A stretch of 64,000 bases of DNA from the NCBI GenBank assembly GCA_039962225.1, contig JAMPKV010000011.1, forward strand, positions 124,001-188,000. Reading direction: 5' to 3'. Source of the DNA: Microcoleus sp. AS-A8. GTDB lineage: Bacteria; Cyanobacteriota; Cyanobacteriia; Cyanobacteriales; Coleofasciculaceae. Positions within the stretch are counted from its first letter, which is position 1. Every line of letters begins with the position of its first letter. Made by a program: the position numbers and the translations under genes. The notes below the pieces were generated by a model, which saw nothing but the letters and a program-made list of their open reading frames with translations, made no database searches and was not told the origin of the DNA. Below are positions 5,192 to 16,843 of this stretch, one piece after another.

Positions 5192-7075
5192 ATGGTTAAT
5201 CCAACATTGACAACTGATGTTTTAGTGGTCGGGGGTGGTACGGGTGGTACTGCGGCTGCCATCCAAGCGGCACGTAGAGGCGTCCGAACCATCCTCGTGA
5301 GTGAGTTCTCTTGGTTAGGGGGAATGCTCACTTCTGCGGGCGTTGCAGCACCCGATGGGAATGAGCTAGCCGCCTTCCAAACCGGCCTTTGGGGTGCCTT
5401 CCTGCAAGAACTGCGGCATCGGCAGACAGGGGGGTTAGATAATAGTTGGGTGAGTATGTTTTCTTACGATCCCCGCATTGGAGCCAAGATATTCGCTGAT
5501 TGGGTGCAGCAACTCCCTAACCTGAAATGGATTGCCAGACAAATCCCTTTAGAAGTTTTGCAACAAGGTAACTGCATTACAGGTGTTCGCTTCGCCGATT
5601 TCACCGTCCACGCCAAGATTACCCTGGACGGAACGGAACTGGGAGACTTGTTGGCATTGGCACAAGTGCCCCATCGCTGGGGTTGGGACTTGCGATCTGC
5701 CCAAGGCGGCAGCGCTTCGCTATCGCAGTTTGGAGAACCTAGTGCCCCCATCTCTCCTAATGAGTTAACTCAGCGATATCCAGTGCAGGCTCCAACTTGG
5801 GTGGTTATCCTCAAAGATTTTGGAACTGCCGAGGTTGCCCCAGAAATTCCCCTCCCACCTCATTACACTCCTGAGCTGTTTGCAGGTGCTTGGGATAACT
5901 ACGGTGCAGAGGTGTTTATGAATTACGGGCGTTTACCTGGGGATTTATTTATGATCAACTGGCCCCTACATGGCAATGATTATGGTGAAGGTGTGGGGCG
6001 TTTAGTTGAATTTCCAGAACAGCGACAGCAATTTCTACAGGAAGCCCTTTGGCACACACAGGGTTTTGCCCATTTTATTCAAACTCAACTAGGGCATCGT
6101 TATGGCTTAGCTGACAGCATCTTTCCCGACGCTGCCTTGGGCGGGGGGGCTTATGCGCTACATCCCTACTACCGCGAAAGTCGACGCCTCCAGGGACTAG
6201 TTACAGTGCGGGAACAAGATATTTTACCCGTTGCTGGGGGGCGAGTGGCAGCTTTACCACTCGATGAAACAGGCAGTGCGATCGCTTCGCGCTGCCCCCT
6301 TGGGGCAATCGCCTCTGGCGCTGCGGGTAGCGCAATCACTTCCATCGCTGTGGGAAACTACCCCAATGACCACCATTACCCCGGTGTCAATTTCTCCTTA
6401 AAACCAAAATCGCTCCGTTGGGGAGGACGCTGGACGGGCACACCGTTTACGATTCCCTATGGGTCATTAATCCCTATAGCAACAGATGGTCTTTTAGCTT
6501 GTGATAAAAATATTTCCGTATCTCACATTGCCAATGGAGCAACCCGGTTACAACCCGTCGTGATGAACCTGGGACAAGCCGCAGGGATGGCAGCATCATT
6601 GTGCATTGAACGGGGATGTCAGCCGAGAGATTTACCCGTCAGGTGTCTCCAAGAAGCCTTATTACAAGACTCTGTTGCTCCTGCGGCGATAATTCCTCTG
6701 TTCAATTTGCCAGCTAACCATCCAGACTGGCTGTATTGGCAGCGCTACTACCTGGATCACCCAGAAGACTATCCGGCAACGGGGAATGTCAGTGTTCAAA
6801 AGTTGAGGGGTGAAAGGTTGAATATTACCAGTCGGAAAGAGCCACTAAAATCTTCAACCTTTACTGGCTATTTCCAACGCCGTGAACAGCAGGAATACAG
6901 CCTGACTCTGACTGAGCCAGGGGTTCACACGGGTCAGACTTGGATGCTAATTACGCTAGAACCAGAGGTTGATGAGCAACTTCAGGCTTGTACAGACCAG
7001 CAACGGCTCACGGTTTGGGGGCGTCTTAATCATTCAGGTGGCTGGTTAGTTGTGGAAAAGATGGAGTCCGTGTAA
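5192..7075 (+). CDS. FAD-dependent oxidoreductase (FAD_oxidored family)
   Basis: A 627-residue flavoprotein of the PF12831 type. The N-terminus has the dinucleotide-binding motif DVLVVGGGTGGTAAAIQAA followed by the acidic strand end typical of FAD binding, then WLGGMLTSAG. A second family hallmark is the TLDGTELGDLLALA stretch at about 155. The C-terminal ATRLQPVVMNLGQAAGMAA segment completes the FAD site. Substrate is unknown. TTG and GTG codons lie in frame upstream (5180, 5183), but the ATG at 5192 is the natural start, 97 bp from the divergent CHAT gene. Two small dispersed repeats have been absorbed into the coding sequence in frame (5693-5726 and about 6274-6335), adding low-complexity Ala/Ser/Gly residues probably in surface loops. 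Confidence 0.8.
   Translation: MVNPTLTTDVLVVGGGTGGTAAAIQAARRGVRTILVSEFSWLGGMLTSAGVAAPDGNELAAFQTGLWGAFLQELRHRQTGGLDNSWVSMFSYDPRIGAKIFADWVQQLPNLKWIARQIPLEVLQQGNCITGVRFADFTVHAKITLDGTELGDLLALAQVPHRWGWDLRSAQGGSASLSQFGEPSAPISPNELTQRYPVQAPTWVVILKDFGTAEVAPEIPLPPHYTPELFAGAWDNYGAEVFMNYGRLPGDLFMINWPLHGNDYGEGVGRLVEFPEQRQQFLQEALWHTQGFAHFIQTQLGHRYGLADSIFPDAALGGGAYALHPYYRESRRLQGLVTVREQDILPVAGGRVAALPLDETGSAIASRCPLGAIASGAAGSAITSIAVGNYPNDHHYPGVNFSLKPKSLRWGGRWTGTPFTIPYGSLIPIATDGLLACDKNISVSHIANGATRLQPVVMNLGQAAGMAASLCIERGCQPRDLPVRCLQEALLQDSVAPAAIIPLFNLPANHPDWLYWQRYYLDHPEDYPATGNVSVQKLRGERLNITSRKEPLKSSTFTGYFQRREQQEYSLTLTEPGVHTGQTWMLITLEPEVDEQLQACTDQQRLTVWGRLNHSGGWLVVEKMESV
5693..5726 (+). repeat. Small dispersed repeat, copy 1 (34 bp)
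   Basis: This 34-bp sequence (starting CGATCTGCCC and ending GCTATCGC) is identical to 16712-16745. Here it lies in frame inside the FAD oxidoreductase gene and is read as SAQGGSASLS; in the other copy it is read from the opposite strand. Confidence 0.85.
6274..6335. repeat. Small dispersed repeat inside the oxidoreductase gene
   Basis: A GC-rich palindromic stretch (GCGATCGCTTCGCGCTGCCC, then TTGGGGCAATCGCC and GGGTAGCGCAATC) characteristic of cyanobacterial small dispersed repeats. It is in frame and encodes an Ala/Ser/Gly-rich insertion near residues 362-382. Confidence 0.6.
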
Positions 7076-7137
7076 TACCTACGTAAAACACCGAATTGTA
7101 CCACCAATTCCCTAAATATCCAATAAATTGCCACGAA

Positions 7138-7204
7138 AGTTTTTCCTGACGCCCTCGTAGGAACCCCGTATCAGGTAGTAGAAATCCCGATACGGACATC
7201 TGCT
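7138..7204 (+). promoter_or_regulatory. Duplicated leader element, copy 1, ahead of the PatS-like ORF
   Basis: The 67 bp before the ATG at 7205 align without a gap to the 67 bp before the ATG at 7729. Both begin AGTTTTTCCTGAC and share a CCCGTATCAG box and an AGTAGA core. The element contains an inverted repeat CCGTATC-N16-GATACGG (7166-7195) ending 9 nt before the start codon. It could be an operator or an RNA hairpin next to the ribosome-binding region; no Shine-Dalgarno sequence is visible. Confidence 0.75.
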
Positions 7205-7297
7205 ATGAGCATTTACACCTGTATTTCCAATCAACTCATCTCAGTTGACACCCAAAAATACAACGACAAGTCTCCCCATCGCGGGAGTGGGCGCTAA
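7205..7297 (+). CDS. patS-like: PatS-like peptide ending in RGSGR (candidate HetR inhibitor)
   Basis: A 30-codon ORF (ATG 7205, TAA 7295-7297) whose last five residues are exactly RGSGR (7280-7294), preceded by SPH. In Anabaena, PatS (17 residues, ending RGSGR) and PatX carry this pentapeptide, which binds the HetR hood domain and blocks HetR activity, setting heterocyst spacing. Here the ORF lies 890 bp upstream of hetR on the same strand, in the place where patX-type genes sit in filamentous cyanobacteria. It has no obvious signal peptide, so it resembles PatS more than PatX. The ATG is supported by the duplicated 67-bp leader that precedes it and the next small ORF at the same spacing. What is seen: the ORF, the exact motif at the C-terminus, the location. 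Function is inferred from the family. Confidence 0.8.
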   Translation: MSIYTCISNQLISVDTQKYNDKSPHRGSGR

Positions 7298-7661
7298 TGT
7301 TTAAATGGCATCCGGCTGGTTTTGGGAAAAATGATGCCAACAGCAAACCGTTGAGACTAGATGCTGGAGTTTTGCGTCATGTTACTGTCGGGTAGCCACG
7401 CAAAGATTCTAGCAGCTTGTCTTGGCGGCAAATCGAGACACTTTAGTCTTTATTATCCCACCAGCCTAAAATTTAGCAAAAATATTCTCGATCTTCAACA
7501 ATATGCGGCAGGATTCCTGGCTTACACGCGCAGTGTTAAGTGTGGGAGGAATGCCGTTCTCCAGCTTTTGTCAGTCGTTTGATGTAGCCCTAAATCACCA
7601 AGGGACCCCAATCGCTCACCACCCTAGAGGCAAGCCAACAGCCGCCACACGCCTCAACGGG
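7298..7661. other. Spacer between the two small peptide genes
   Basis: About 360 bp without a supported gene. An inverted repeat TGGCATC-N20-GATGCCA (7306-7339) lies 8 nt after the PatS-like stop codon and could be a terminator or processing hairpin, but it has no T-tract. An ORF of 73 codons (7361-7582) lacks any recognisable feature and is not called. Confidence 0.4.
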
Positions 7662-7728
7662 AGTTTTTCCTGACCCTATAGTCTTAAGCCCGTATCAGTG
7701 AGTAGACACTCTGATACGGGCTTGCCCT
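7662..7728 (+). promoter_or_regulatory. Duplicated leader element, copy 2, ahead of the PatX-like ORF
   Basis: Ungapped homologue of 7138-7204. The inverted repeat is longer here: 11-bp perfect arms AAGCCCGTATC / GATACGGGCTT (7686-7696 and 7713-7723) with the same 16-nt spacer, ending 5 nt before the ATG at 7729. A hairpin this close to the start would be expected to affect ribosome access; alternatively it is a protein-binding palindrome. It differs from the known Anabaena HetR site core (GGGTCTAACCC). Confidence 0.75.
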
Positions 7729-7956
7729 ATGCGTAGTTCCTCTTTGTTCATTTTTTTGTTAAGTTTTTTAACAGTTTCACTATCTCTTGATTCTTGGCTG
7801 ATGGCCTCCGGTTCAACGGCTCTCTTAGAATCGGCTCATGCGACTCAACTGCTAGCCGCTCAAACCCAAACTCACGGGAACCCACGTCCTGAGCCTGGTA
7901 GCAAACGCCGGAGCTTCTACCAATTACAGGAAACTGAGATTCTTCGGTTATTATAA
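7729..7956 (+). CDS. patX-like: PatX-like exported small protein with degenerate pentapeptide
   Basis: PatX proteins are short secreted precursors encoded just upstream of hetR in filamentous cyanobacteria and carry RG(S/T)GR near the C-terminus. This 75-residue product fits by size, position (227 bp before hetR, same strand) and a signal peptide (hydrophobic core residues 6-20; possible cleavage at SAHA-TQ, about 38). The expected pentapeptide region instead reads PGSKR followed by RSFYQ (residues 56-60, DNA 7894-7908): Gly-2, Ser-3 and Arg-5 are kept, Arg-1 and Gly-4 are changed. No frameshift is apparent. It may be a diverged partner, a decaying copy made redundant by the intact RGSGR ORF upstream, or a peptide with altered specificity. 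The assignment rests on context and architecture, not an alignment. Confidence 0.6.
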   Translation: MRSSSLFIFLLSFLTVSLSLDSWLMASGSTALLESAHATQLLAAQTQTHGNPRPEPGSKRRSFYQLQETEILRLL

Positions 7957-9098
<1,142 letters not shown>

Positions 9099-10098: not shown

Positions 10099-11268
10099 TC
10101 AAGCCAATCTAAACAAGGGCAACACTTCGGCAAGGATCAGTGTCCATTGCCCTTCTAATAGACAAGCTATCCCTGGACTTCCGGGGAGGCTTACAGCTCC
10201 CCCAAGAGCGGCAATTAATATTGCCGCATTTATATCAGCATCATGTTCAAATCCACAATGCCCACACTTAAATTTCTTCCCGTTCCGATACGACTTCCCC
10301 TTTTCAGGGTGAACGTGTCGGCAACGCGAACAGGTTTGGCTTGTGTAAGCAGGGGGGACAAACACAACTGGAACTCCGGCAATTGCAGCTTTGTACTTTA
10401 CGAATATCCTGAGTTGATAAAAAGCCCAGTTATTCGTTCTACGCCGCTCAGTTTTGCTGCGTGGTTTTTGGTTGAGGCTATCCCTGATTCCGGTCAAATC
10501 CTCAAACGCCAATGCAGCATCAGATTGCTTTGCCTCAGTTACCAGTTGCTTACTGATGTCGTGGTTCAGCCACTTCTGAAAGCGACGTTCTCTCCCAGAA
10601 AGCCTTCTCAGCAACCGTCTAGAGTTGCGAGTGCGTTTGGATTGAACGTTTGCTCTGACTCTACTAAATTTGTCTCTAACAGACTGGATGTGTTCACCAC
10701 TCCAGGATTTACCTGTAGAGGTGGTAGCAATATCTTTGCGACCAAGATCGACTCCAATCACTTTGGGTGTTTTACCCGTTGGTGGGGTGTCTATCTCAAC
10801 CACAAAGTTGATGTAATAATCGCCCTTCTTAGACTTATTCAGTGTTGCACTGGTGAGGTTTTGCCCTCTGAGCAGCGCAATCTGATATCCACCGATGGAC
10901 AGCTTAAAATCAACCCGTCCACACTTCAAGGTCACGCCCACAGTTTGCTCGGATTCCACATATTTAAAAGTGCGGACATCCAAGCTAATGGAAGTGGGTC
11001 TGAACTTGTGGATTTGCTTGACTGCTTTGGCATTACCAATTACTCGCCGGATAGCCTGACAAACATGATTGGCTTTCAGTCCTGTAACTTCACGAACGGG
11101 CTTATAAACTTTGTGGTGAAGTTTGGTCGTATTTCAACAATTGTCGCGTTTAGCTACTGCGAGTATCTGGTTGCAAGCATCAGCAAATCCCCGCAGAGTC
11201 TCATCGATCTTTGGTCAAAACTCTACAGGGACTATAAGCTTGCATTTAACAGACAGAGATTGAGTCAC
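10099..11268 (-). pseudogene. tnpB: Broken IS200/IS605-family TnpB (RNA-guided nuclease relative)
   Basis: TnpB is the transposon-encoded RNA-guided nuclease related to Cas12. The intact reading frame covers only 10099-10983, but the same frame continues upstream with obvious TnpB N-terminal sequence (VTQSLSVKCKLIVPVEF, then TLRGFADACNQILAV) interrupted by two TGA codons, at 11215-11217 and 11134-11136. The likely original ATG at 11276 is thrown out of frame by a duplicated TG. The nuclease part looks intact: RuvC residues in GVDLGRKD, AFEDLTGI and DADINAA, and zinc-finger cysteines CSRC and CGHC. No tnpA is present. The element sits between the DUF92 gene and the VOC gene, its upstream end only about 20 bp from the VOC start. 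Confidence 0.85.
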
Positions 11269-12609: not shown

Positions 12610-15600
12610 TCACTCCCAATTCTGCAACTCAGTAATCCAATTACGAAGCAACGCGGTAATTTGTTCGCGGCGTGTTTCAAAGGTAGCCGCTATCCAAATA
12701 AATGCGATGCCGACCAGAAGCCCAACAACCCATTTGGAGAAGGGGTAATCAAAAATCAGAATTCCTAGTTGATACAAAGCATTAATTAAAAAAGTTGCCG
12801 TGCCTACATAAAGGTATGCTCGAATCCTTAAACCCAGTCCCGCAAAAATTACCAACAAACTAATTATTCCACTTACTAAACCACTCCCTGGATTGCTCCA
12901 TAAAGCCACAACACAAATTGCACCGCTACCCACCAAGCGTAGGAAGTGACGCCTGTGTTTTTCTTCGGGTTGTTTTAGATTGGGATCGACTTGAGCGATG
13001 TAGAGCAAAGACAGTGCCAGCGGAGTGACATACCACAAGGCATCGCTCAGTTTTAGATACCAAAACCAGCGATAGAGCACCCAGTCAATTAACAGGGCAC
13101 TGAGATAGGTAAAGCGAATTTGCTGATTCAGGATGGCAAAGAAAACGTAGTACCCTGCAATAATCAGTAAACTGACGGGGGAATTCCCCATCGGACTTTC
13201 GACAACGGCAATCAGGGGGATAGCGATCGCTGCAACTGTCCAAGGGCGTTTTTGCCAGCCCCAACGTTCCCAAGGCAGGATGAACAGGAAGTAGGCAAAG
13301 ACAGAAGCGATCGCACCTTTCCAAGGCCCCAATGGCCCCGATAATAGACGTGCAATGGGTAAACTGAGCCAATACAGACGTATTCCAAAGGCTTCTAAAA
13401 AGCCCAGATAAACCCAAATTTCTCCACCCCTAACCTCTGGATCGTCGGCTTCCTCCCCCCTGGCAGGCTTGTGGCGTCCCTGAAAGATGGCGTATTGCAC
13501 TAAAAACACACCCACCCCAAATCCCAGCATTAAAGATTGGGGTTGATAAGTGGTAGCACCTATCAAGAGAAGGCTACTCCAAGCCCAGTGCAGATGAGCG
13601 ATCACGTTGAGTTCTTCTTTCGTCAGGTGCAGGTACTTGATTAACCAGGGAGATAGCACTCGGTAGGCATACATAATACTCGTCCCCAGCCCTGCCATCA
13701 CAATTAATCCGTCGCCTGTTGAGCCTCCCGATAGTTGTGAGAGTTGATACAGTAAGATTTCATAAGCAGAAACCGAAACCCCCAACAAAGCAAGGTAGAG
13801 CAGGGGTTTAAATGCCTGACGCCGACGCCCCACGCCGATGGCAATCACAGCAAGAGCAAGGGTTGATAAACCCGTCCAGTTGGCGAAAGTGCCCCAGCGC
13901 AGTACGCTGCCCAAAATCCCATAAAGTAAAGGGATAACATGCCAGCTACTGGGTAAATGACTCCTACCCGTTCGACGCTGCCACCAGTCCCCTGCTAGCT
14001 GGGCAATGAGTCCTAAAGCGAGGTTAGCGATCGCTAAGTTCAGGGCTGAGCGCCCCAAAAAACCCAATCCCTCGGCTGTCAACAATTCCAGACACCAACC
14101 TAGGGCGTAAATGCTCCAGTTCGACGGGTGACGCCAGCTCCGATAAAGGATCGCTCCCATTGTCACAAACCCAGCCACCAGCACCGCCACCTCTGGGGAG
14201 AGAAACCCCCAATAGACAGCTAAGGAGTGAAGTGTGAGTAGGATGAGTTCTAGACTACATAATGCGATCGCCCAACTATCTGTCGCCGGAACATAAAGGG
14301 ATGCCAATTCACTAGAACGGCGCATCAGCCAACTACGTATCAGCCATAAACTGGTGAATGCGATCGCACCCGCTACCAACCAACCCTCTAGAGACAGGGG
14401 CGGTAATCCAGGGATACCCTCCCATAAGCACATCCCCAAGAAACTCAAACCAAACCCGACTGTAATTCCTGCGGCACTAACGTCTCGCCGATAATGGGTA
14501 TTCACGAACATCAGGATGGTGGCAACCCCCAAACTGACTAATCGGACATGGGGGATGCTCAGCGTCAAGAATTGCAGCGCAACCAAGGCAGCTATACTTA
14601 ACGCGCTAGCGAATTGCCTTCGGGAGCCTGATGTCCAAGTCGCTACTCCAGTCAAAGCTAAGGGTGTAACCAGCCACAACAAACCCCAATAAGTCACGTT
14701 AACAGTTGGGTTTTCCCATGCGGCTTGAACATTCACCCACAGCAAGACATAACTCAACCCAGCTAAGGCTAAGCCCAAATGCCAAGCACTGCGACGCCAT
14801 ATTGGGGATTGAGCAATTCTAGTAACTCCTGACTCCTGTACGGGTGACGTATGCGTCGCCTCTACACCTGGCTTCTCACGCCCTAACGTCACTGCCCATT
14901 CGCCTACCATCAGGGCTAACAAAATGGCTGCCCATTCCCCTCGATTCAGGTGTGGCAACAGATAGTCAATGGCGCACAGAATAGTTGTTATACCTGTAAT
15001 GTGAGTCAGGTACACCAGCAGTTCGAGATTACGGCTACTACCCAAAAATCCACGTCGTTGGCTGACAATCCCCAAAGTAATGGTGGAATTGAGTAAATTG
15101 AGCGTCCGCAGCAGGGGATTAACGGAACTGAGGACAGTTAGGAGGGTGCCAAAGGAGAGAGCGATCGCTTCTCCAAACTCAGCCAAATGAATTTTCTCTC
15201 GGCGCTCCAGCCAGTCTATTAACCCGACGATGATGATCAGGTAGGGAAACAGCACCAAGCTTAACAGGGCAAAGGGCGTATCCTCGGAATGGATGAGTTG
15301 GCTGGCGGTTGCCACTAGCTGTGTTTGGATATGGGCTGGAATCAACCGCCAAAACAGCCATAGGGACTGTAAGCCAGTGCACAAAATAGCGGCTAAGTCA
15401 AGCTTCTGCCAAAATCGTTGTAAGCGACTACCAAAGAACCACAAGCCCAATCCACTCACTGCGATCGCTTGCCAGGGAAACTCGACTCCCACCGAAACCA
15501 GCCAGCCTACAAACAGCAACCCACCCCCCAGCCACTCCCAACTCAACTGAGGCAATTCGGATTCCTCGGCTGACAACTTCCGTTGTTGCTGGGATAGCCA

Positions 15601-16758
15601 AGATAGGAACCAGCCGTAGGCACCAATTGCTAAACCGAGCTGCTGGATATCCACACCTGCGACAAAAATGGCTCTAAACAGAAGAATGCCGATGCCATAC
15701 ACCGCGATTTGGAACGTAGCGGGATGTAGGATATCGGGCGAAGCCCTTCCCGCAGGCTGGGATGAATTAATCCTGCCTTGAGGCTTCCGTCTTCTGCATT
15801 CCCAATAGAATGTGGCTAAGGTAGTACTTGTGCCCAAATAAACCGCCACTAGAGGAAATCCGGGCACACTCCAACCCCAGTGCAGGTAACTGAGCGCCAA
15901 ATAATTGAGGATGGGTAAAGGGGGTTGTTGCTCTCGTTTCCAGATGAAAAAGGCGTTAGCGTAGCGTGCGCGTAGCGCAATCGCGCTCAAGATCGGGGTA
16001 GCACAAGCCACCACAATCCAATCGACGGGATTACGCCACAACCCAAAGCCGTCCATCGCCCAAAAGTTGACCGGCACCAGTAGCAGCGTCACAATCTGCA
16101 ACGTCTGAGCCGTCAAGCGTAAATTACTCTGCCGATTTGCCCAGGCACAGACTCCCCAAAACGTTAAGGTATATCCCAATAACACCCCATATTGTCCAGA
16201 GGCTGGGAAATTCTTCCATTGACTGGCAGCTAGCACCCCAGAGGATACCACCACCATGAACACCCCTAGAAACAGCAGCCACCTGACGCTGAGTTCTGCC
16301 TGAAGCGACTGCAACATTTCCGTGAGCCAGGTGGGGGACGGATTGGGTTGTTTTGGTGCGGGTGCCGTCGGTTCCTCTGGAGCAAAGTCTGTGGCGAACT
16401 CCGGTAACCGTTGAGGCATTGGTGTGCGGGGTGATATTGGCGCTGGAGTTGAGGAGGCTGTTGGCGTAACAATTACTTGTGGCAACGGACAGGTAAGATT
16501 TTCTCGGCACAACTTTTGCACGAGACTGTCCGAAAGCAAACCTAAGCGTAAAAACGCATCTAAACCTTCTAACAGTTCAGGATTAGACGTTTGAGTTGTG
16601 AGTTCAACTTTGAGTTGAGTCTGAGACAGTAAACCCAAGCGCCGCCATATACTTAGACCTTTTAACAGTGCAGGCTGAGCCGTACTGGTCGTGACTTCAA
16701 TTGTGACTGAACGATCTGCCCAAGGCGGCAGCGCTTCGCTATCGCGTGGCGATGACAT
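12610..16758 (-). CDS. Giant polytopic membrane protein (DUF2157-like)
   Basis: A roughly 1380-residue protein with a soluble N-terminal part of about 180 residues followed by some 30 hydrophobic helices. The N-terminus has two repeats of the pattern LLxGLxxxLRLGLLS (about residues 32-85), a proline-rich linker, then transmembrane segments to the end. Similar very large membrane proteins with a DUF2157-type start are widespread in cyanobacteria and uncharacterised. The first ~12 residues (RDSEALPPWADR) come from a small dispersed repeat that has been captured as coding sequence, so the true ancestral start could be slightly downstream. It overlaps nothing and is followed after 7 bp by the lipase gene. 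Confidence 0.75.
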   Translation of the reverse strand: MSSPRDSEALPPWADRSVTIEVTTSTAQPALLKGLSIWRRLGLLSQTQLKVELTTQTSNPELLEGLDAFLRLGLLSDSLVQKLCRENLTCPLPQVIVTPTASSTPAPISPRTPMPQRLPEFATDFAPEEPTAPAPKQPNPSPTWLTEMLQSLQAELSVRWLLFLGVFMVVVSSGVLAASQWKNFPASGQYGVLLGYTLTFWGVCAWANRQSNLRLTAQTLQIVTLLLVPVNFWAMDGFGLWRNPVDWIVVACATPILSAIALRARYANAFFIWKREQQPPLPILNYLALSYLHWGWSVPGFPLVAVYLGTSTTLATFYWECRRRKPQGRINSSQPAGRASPDILHPATFQIAVYGIGILLFRAIFVAGVDIQQLGLAIGAYGWFLSWLSQQQRKLSAEESELPQLSWEWLGGGLLFVGWLVSVGVEFPWQAIAVSGLGLWFFGSRLQRFWQKLDLAAILCTGLQSLWLFWRLIPAHIQTQLVATASQLIHSEDTPFALLSLVLFPYLIIIVGLIDWLERREKIHLAEFGEAIALSFGTLLTVLSSVNPLLRTLNLLNSTITLGIVSQRRGFLGSSRNLELLVYLTHITGITTILCAIDYLLPHLNRGEWAAILLALMVGEWAVTLGREKPGVEATHTSPVQESGVTRIAQSPIWRRSAWHLGLALAGLSYVLLWVNVQAAWENPTVNVTYWGLLWLVTPLALTGVATWTSGSRRQFASALSIAALVALQFLTLSIPHVRLVSLGVATILMFVNTHYRRDVSAAGITVGFGLSFLGMCLWEGIPGLPPLSLEGWLVAGAIAFTSLWLIRSWLMRRSSELASLYVPATDSWAIALCSLELILLTLHSLAVYWGFLSPEVAVLVAGFVTMGAILYRSWRHPSNWSIYALGWCLELLTAEGLGFLGRSALNLAIANLALGLIAQLAGDWWQRRTGRSHLPSSWHVIPLLYGILGSVLRWGTFANWTGLSTLALAVIAIGVGRRRQAFKPLLYLALLGVSVSAYEILLYQLSQLSGGSTGDGLIVMAGLGTSIMYAYRVLSPWLIKYLHLTKEELNVIAHLHWAWSSLLLIGATTYQPQSLMLGFGVGVFLVQYAIFQGRHKPARGEEADDPEVRGGEIWVYLGFLEAFGIRLYWLSLPIARLLSGPLGPWKGAIASVFAYFLFILPWERWGWQKRPWTVAAIAIPLIAVVESPMGNSPVSLLIIAGYYVFFAILNQQIRFTYLSALLIDWVLYRWFWYLKLSDALWYVTPLALSLLYIAQVDPNLKQPEEKHRRHFLRLVGSGAICVVALWSNPGSGLVSGIISLLVIFAGLGLRIRAYLYVGTATFLINALYQLGILIFDYPFSKWVVGLLVGIAFIWIAATFETRREQITALLRNWITELQNWE
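15950..15990. repeat. Small dispersed repeat inside the giant membrane protein gene
   Basis: The stretch GCGTTAGCGTAGCGTGCGCG, followed by TAGCGCAATCGCGC, is the typical self-complementary composition of cyanobacterial dispersed repeats. It is in frame. Confidence 0.5.
16712..16745. repeat. Small dispersed repeat, copy 2 (34 bp)
   Basis: Identical to 5693-5726. Here the minus strand is coding and the repeat forms nearly the whole N-terminus (DSEALPPWADR) of the giant membrane protein. Confidence 0.85.
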
Positions 16759-16843
16759 AAGCAGCAATCCCTTCTACTCAATCCCATCATGACTTTAGAT
16801 TGGGAAGGCGCGATCGCCCTCTTGAATAGAAAACAAGCATAGC

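Follow-up and report, generated by a model that had tools for sequence, protein, structure and literature searches.

A signal-less, patX-like 30-codon gene ending in RGSGR upstream of hetR in Microcoleus sp. AS-A8: a putative PatS-like inhibitor of HetR

The window analysed here is a stretch of 64,000 nucleotides (nt) from the cyanobacterium Microcoleus sp. AS-A8 (assembly GCA_039962225.1, contig JAMPKV010000011.1, positions 124,001 to 188,000 of the forward strand). It carries hetR and, upstream on the same strand, a short open reading frame (ORF), called gene A, whose product ends in the pentapeptide RGSGR. Gene A is probably a functional, minimised derivative of patX, and its product would act in the cytosol as a PatS-like inhibitor of HetR. 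The case is built on sequence comparison. A second PatX-like gene, gene B, lies between gene A and hetR. The three genes are as follows.

7205..7297, + strand: gene A, a 30-codon ORF, putatively patX-derived, without a hydrophobic N-terminus, ending in HRGSGR and a stop.
7729..7956, + strand: gene B, a PatX-like protein of 75 amino acids with a hydrophobic N-terminus and PGSKR replacing RGSGR; 16 bits against a PatX model cut-off of 30.
8184..9098, + strand: hetR, on whose product the gene A peptide presumably acts; Pfam and NCBIfam matches above cut-off.

Gene A and its conservation

An earlier note on this DNA had picked out gene A, and its description of the ORF holds. Translation of the window gives an ATG at 7205, 30 codons and a TAA at 7295-7297. 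The product is MSIYTCISNQLISVDTQKYNDKSPHRGSGR, with RGSGR as its last five residues (26-30) and the stop directly after. The ATG lies 979 nt before that of hetR at 8184, on the same strand. An RG[ST]GR ending occurs in one of the 1233 window ORFs of at least 15 amino acids, and about 4e-6 per ORF is expected from composition alone. Two sets of 60 simulated windows contained no such ending (0/95,358 and 0/95,241 ORFs, 190,599 in total). A whole-genome pattern for C-terminal RGSGR, with the first Arg as CGN only, gave two matches, of which gene A is the sole RGSGR encoder; the backward control gave four. A chance ORF is ruled out by these simulated windows together with conservation across taxa.

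Relatives were sampled as 80 named hetR loci (the best 80 of 336) plus the hetR loci of the window's family, in which 19 of 20 genomes carry hetR. Gene A is present in four of these 19, namely the window genome itself (G000, locus L001) and G001, G004 and G006 (loci L082, L103 and L087, the last having the same sequence as the named locus L007). Symplocastrum torsivum (L002) also carries it, giving five taxa in all. The orthologues in the four other taxa, which answer the earlier note's call for a check in relatives, all have exactly 30 codons. Over codons 24-30 (PHRGSGR), the ten pairs from these five taxa show no amino-acid change and one to five silent changes, and the stop codon alternates between TAA and TGA. 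The motif is HRGSGR, not ERGSGR, in 5/5 taxa. For the whole gene, the ratio of the proportions of amino-acid-changing and silent differences (pN/pS) is 0.26 to 0.59 in the ten pairs.

The other 15 hetR-bearing genomes of the family, which lack gene A, all encode a hydrophobic PatX that bears RGSGR and is preceded by a TCC[TG]GA leader. A hydrophobic RGSGR-bearing PatX was looked for in the four family genomes with gene A and none was found; the motif of gene B is damaged there. Gene A itself scores 19 bits against the NCBIfam PatX model NF047413 (cut-off 30) and its orthologues 15.9 to 24, so this model would not name gene A.

Leader, paralogues and descent from patX

The duplicated leader described in the earlier note is real. 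Positions 7133-7214 and 7657-7738 share 71% identity over 82 nt, with the copies 524 nt apart. What had been missed is that the second copy, which runs into the ATG of the ORF at 7729-7956, leads a PatX-like paralogue with a damaged motif (gene B), and that a third paralogue exists elsewhere in the genome. Both leaders carry recognisable elements.

7144..7149, + strand: TCCTGA in the gene A leader, DIF1-like but one base off the published motif, 61 nt ahead of the ATG.
7668..7673, + strand: TCCTGA in the gene B leader, likewise DIF1-like and 61 nt ahead of the ATG.
7165..7196, + strand: dyad with CCCGTATCAG / CCGATACGGA-type arms (7165-7174 and 7187-7196), covering the presumed -10 and start region of gene A.
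7686..7723, + strand: inverted repeat in the gene B leader, with 18-nt arms that are 89% complementary.

In the published text available, the DIF1 motif is given as TCCGGA, at the -35 region. Elhai and Khudyakov in 2018 reportedly placed it within 69 nt upstream of patX. Most PatX leaders of the sampled set carry TCCTGA, and a T[CA]C[TG]GA element stands 50-72 nt before the ATG in 57 of the 59 hetR-linked RG[ST]GR ORFs. TCCTGA precedes the gene A ATG by 61 nt in four of five taxa, the corresponding bases of L007 being read as N. The gene A leader and start residues match those of canonical PatX of relatives. Among 18 equal-length leaders, the dyad pairs in 132/180 cells in register versus at most 75/180 when shifted by up to 5, in a register read off the window's gene B leader, a choice that favours the in-register count. 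The dyad, found at 7165-7196 and 7689-7720 in these patX-type promoters, is perhaps an operator.

Gene B lies between gene A and hetR in 5/5 gene A loci. Its N-terminal hydropathy in these loci is 2.32 to 2.73, and its motif is damaged in different ways: PGSKR in L001 and L082, PGSGR in L002, RGARR in L103 and PASPP in L007. Against the PatX model, the L103 protein (40.1 bits) is above the cut-off, and those of L002 (27.1) and the window (16) are below it. Over the 65 gene B codons compared between the window and G001, 13 changes are silent and 12 are not (pN/pS 0.31). A further ORF between genes A and B (7361-7582) was rejected as a gene; it is shortened in L082 and absent from the ORF lists of L002, L103 and L007.

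The third paralogue (G000:C10:313386-313583, - strand; 34.1 bits) has PGCGR in the RGSGR position and an orthologue in G001, with a pN/pS of 0.51 between the two. It is the sole match above the cut-off among the seven that NF047413 gave in the genome at E up to 1; matches below the cut-off carry little weight, as they occur in 11 of 14 control genomes, none of which has one above it. The pattern H-R-G-[S/T/C/R...]-G-R/S gave six matches in the genome. These are three HRGCGR in frames of 25, 163 and 190 amino acids, two HRGTGR in frames of 65 and 20 amino acids, neither PatX-like, and gene A. A second intact PatX elsewhere in the genome was thus sought with the PatX model and with this pattern, which covers His-preceded motifs only, and neither gave one. 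Within the reach of these searches, gene A is the sole predicted PatX-like protein with RGSGR in the window genome.

Over the whole sequence, gene A resembles gene B of its own locus with z scores of 12.3 (L002), 10.4 (L103), 6.9 (window), 6.6 (L082) and 2.2 (L007), and four canonical PatX with z of 3.2 to 6.4. In the five two-gene loci, 914 to 1112 nt separate the oxidoreductase gene from hetR, versus 644 to 786 nt in three near loci with one gene (L003, L005 and L098), although some farther one-gene loci also exceed 990 nt. We read this as a duplication of patX, after which about 30 hydrophobic residues would have been lost upstream and the motif downstream, in an order of events that we infer. 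The earlier interpretation is supported in part. A short gene under selection is indeed there, with RGSGR intact at its C-terminal end, a patX-type leader and no PatX-like hydrophobic N-terminus; its probable descent from patX had not been recognised.

N-terminal hydropathy was compared in a wider survey. The earlier note had remarked that gene A lacks a signal peptide, unlike PatX, and the N-terminus indeed has no PatX-like hydrophobic stretch, with a best 12-residue hydropathy of 1.12 in the window. The survey started from 147 hetR loci, with L100 dropped for its short flank. An RG[ST]GR ORF lies within 3 kb of hetR in about 58 of 128 loci, a rough count in which duplicates such as L033/L127 and L066/L130 stayed as pairs; the 70 loci without one include most heterocyst formers of the set. 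Hydropathy was computed for 54 distinct hetR-linked RG[ST]GR proteins, or 53 after collapse at 90%. It is low in nine of the 53, by a limit of 1.6 chosen after seeing the gap from 1.37 to 1.79. The five gene A proteins range from -0.02 to 1.30, the 44 hydrophobic proteins from 1.79 to 2.88. All nine low-hydropathy forms end exactly in RGSGR, versus 7/44 of the others (Fisher p 2.6e-6, which overstates the association because related proteins are not independent).

The nine are made up of gene A from its five taxa and of four further proteins: L033 and L066, from Microseira wollei and a relative, plus L023 and L047. On the HetR tree, the Microseira-like pair joins the canonical bearers L018, L020 and L031 (support 100/95), and L023 and L047 join L017, L019 and L043 (97/95), in both cases away from gene A; a label test on this tree set the short groups against each other only and has no bearing on independence. 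The proteins of these four loci have no match to the PatX model, and their genomes have none at E up to 0.3. Among 40 further stretches from the order, 19 have an RG[ST]GR-type ORF, and the short form occurs in two (G102 and G171), which were taken as repeats of L033 and L066 and add no new case. The same loss of the signal may have occurred independently in the Microseira-like genomes, and perhaps in the two Leptolyngbya-like ones. It is possible, and we suggest it tentatively, that patX genes gave rise to PatS-like inhibitors repeatedly, each time by shedding the signal region. In the window lineage, a morphogen matured outside the cell would thereby have turned into an inhibitor that acts on HetR in the cytosol and has its motif fixed at a free C-terminus, and the copies still exported would have lost the motif and taken on other roles.

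Other variations on patX were seen in the sampled loci. L146 (G183) has a tandem patX pair 2215 and 1308 nt before hetR, both with a hydrophobic start and an intact motif (RGSGR and RGTGR), which is a duplication without the opposite decay found in the window. Extra patX-like genes with TCCGGA leaders lie on contigs other than that of hetR in L172 (G002), L174 (G013), L181 (G005) and L182 (G010); in two, the product has 48 amino acids ending in RGSGR, and in two the motif reads RGNGR. PatX polyproteins of 160, 181, 139 and 136 amino acids with 5, 4, 4 and 4 repeated RGSGR copies are found upstream of hetR in L006, L008, L016 (Symploca sp.) and L076, respectively, and resemble a precursor of several peptides. 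In L102, a PatX-like protein of 166 amino acids, whose ATG is 814 nt before hetR, has a hydrophobic start, four RASGR and no RGSGR. The HetR ligand may have changed specifically in this lineage.

Proposed action and rival explanations

In the proposed mechanism, patX would have been duplicated upstream of hetR in this lineage. The upstream copy would have kept the patX promoter, the MRIYSSI-like start residues and the motif-bearing end while losing the hydrophobic signal region, and the downstream copy (gene B) would have kept its signal-like N-terminus and lost the motif. From an active DIF1-type promoter, gene A would yield a peptide made in the cytosol, and the RGSGR at the free C-terminus of this peptide, N-terminally trimmed or not, would bind the HetR hood and free HetR from DNA. 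The outcome would be negative feedback on HetR within the producing cell, perhaps also in neighbours via cell-cell channels. The steps that we infer here are expression, binding to HetR, action in the cytosol, trimming, transfer and the sequence of evolutionary events. Since the motif stands at the protein end, C-terminal trimming would not be needed.

The presumed target fits this scheme. The window HetR keeps R223, E253, E254, D256, D270 and D278 (6/6 PatS-related hood residues checked; numbering offset of 5, from alignment). According to the available text of PMC4649674, these residues contact or influence PatS6, and R223 lies near the C-terminal carboxyl of the peptide. The genome, rated 100% complete, has a best nifH match of 217 bits, where the cut-off is 394. 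With no nifH above the cut-off, a role of gene A in heterocyst patterning is unlikely, and the controlled process is probably filament biology instead.

Several points weigh against the proposed action. The missing signal in gene A is judged by hydropathy alone. Codons 1-23 evolve fast (pN/pS 0.46 to 0.82). When the last seven residues are removed, z of gene A against its own gene B is only 1.6 to 3.2. The tree data neither establish nor reject one common origin for the five gene A taxa (approximately unbiased test, p 0.222, with the tree that holds them together 6.9 log units worse). In the portions of PMC12756182 available, PatX of Nostoc is exported and then cut by PatP, and PatX without its signal neither interacts with HetR in a two-hybrid assay nor blocks heterocysts. 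In Leptolyngbya, patX effects looked hetR-independent (PMC11298460, in the part available). However, signal-less PatX regains activity in Nostoc once PatP is also cytosolic, and the authors hold that PatS and HetN precursors are processed in the cytoplasm (PMC12756182, same portions). Gene A would therefore need a cytosolic trimming enzyme, or its 30-mer would have to be active as it is.

The Nostoc results, in which export was required for PatX activity, can also be taken to mean that gene A is still an exported PatX, leaving the cytosol through its weakly hydrophobic first half or by another route and trimmed by a PatP-like peptidase. The resemblance of its first residues to canonical PatX agrees with this. 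However, the hydropathy of all five gene A proteins lies below the range of the hydrophobic set, whereas gene B of the same loci lies well within it, and we regard continued export as unlikely. Genes A and B could instead act as a pair, in which the gene B product, exported or membrane-bound, would carry the A peptide, receive it or compete with it. The two co-occur in 5/5 gene A loci, and gene B has a pN/pS of 0.31 between the two closest taxa, in which its motif region is identical. Nothing in the data points to an A-B interaction, however, the tail length and motif of gene B vary by taxon, and gene B of L103 has no TCC[TG]GA leader element; such pairing seems quite improbable.

That gene A is a decaying, functionless relic of a duplicated patX would accord with its fast codons 1-23 and with the damaged motifs of its sister copies. 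However, PHRGSGR is unchanged in five taxa despite change at silent sites and in the stop codon, and length and leader are kept. The purely silent change over PHRGSGR, set beside the fast codons 1-23, places selection on the motif-bearing end of gene A, and the relic explanation is very unlikely. The leader dyad is conserved, but a DNA or RNA element (promoter dyad or leader RNA) with an incidental ORF is hardly credible, as the changes in the motif are purely silent and Rfam gave no match in 7000-8250 at E up to 0.1, which also sets aside the locus as a known RNA family.

Elsewhere in the window, 10099-10983 (- strand) encodes an IS605 OrfB / TnpB-like protein. The string SEALPPWADR occurs in two unrelated ORFs, 5464-5751 (- strand) and the start of 12610-16767 (- strand), which suggests an interspersed repeat.

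Comparison with known systems

PatX is regarded as an ancient exported partner of HetR, and export is reported as essential for its action in the text available of PMC12756182. The sole intact RGSGR found in the window genome stands on a signal-less peptide, which would mean that export is dispensable or that another route exists. A survey of 2025, by the criteria given in its available text, discarded PatX candidates that did not exceed model cut-offs or had no Sec signal; these criteria would exclude a signal-less class. If the proposed reading is true, surveys that require a Sec signal score such genomes as without PatX. No report of a signal-less PatX was found in a literature search that did not take in Elhai and Khudyakov (2018), a paper that may list these taxa. 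The gene A lineage would offer a concrete path from PatX to PatS, as well as a natural experiment on HetR and its inhibitor in filaments with no apparent capacity for nitrogen fixation.

Gene A shares with PatX (NF047413) the DIF1-like leader, the site upstream of hetR, the first residues and the HRGSGR motif. It differs in having no hydrophobic signal region, half the length, the motif at the extreme C-terminus and a model score below the cut-off. PatS of Anabaena/Nostoc PCC 7120, in the text available a peptide of 13-17 amino acids (PMC7476756), is likewise short, has no signal peptide and ends in RGSGR. In contrast to PatS, gene A has 30 residues, a patX-type leader, a place beside hetR and a host genome without nifH above the cut-off. 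The extended motif of PatS is ERGSGR in the part available of PMC5812504, versus HRGSGR in gene A. The RGSGR motif is also common to HetN, which the accessible part of PMC4649674 describes as a putative ketoacyl reductase with an internal motif, whereas gene A encodes a 30-mer. Since gene A departs from PatX in two defining features (hydrophobic N-terminus, model cut-off) and from PatS in two others (ERGSGR, nitrogen-fixing host), it is assigned to neither. We file it, from its sequence, as a PatX-derived variant that would work like PatS.
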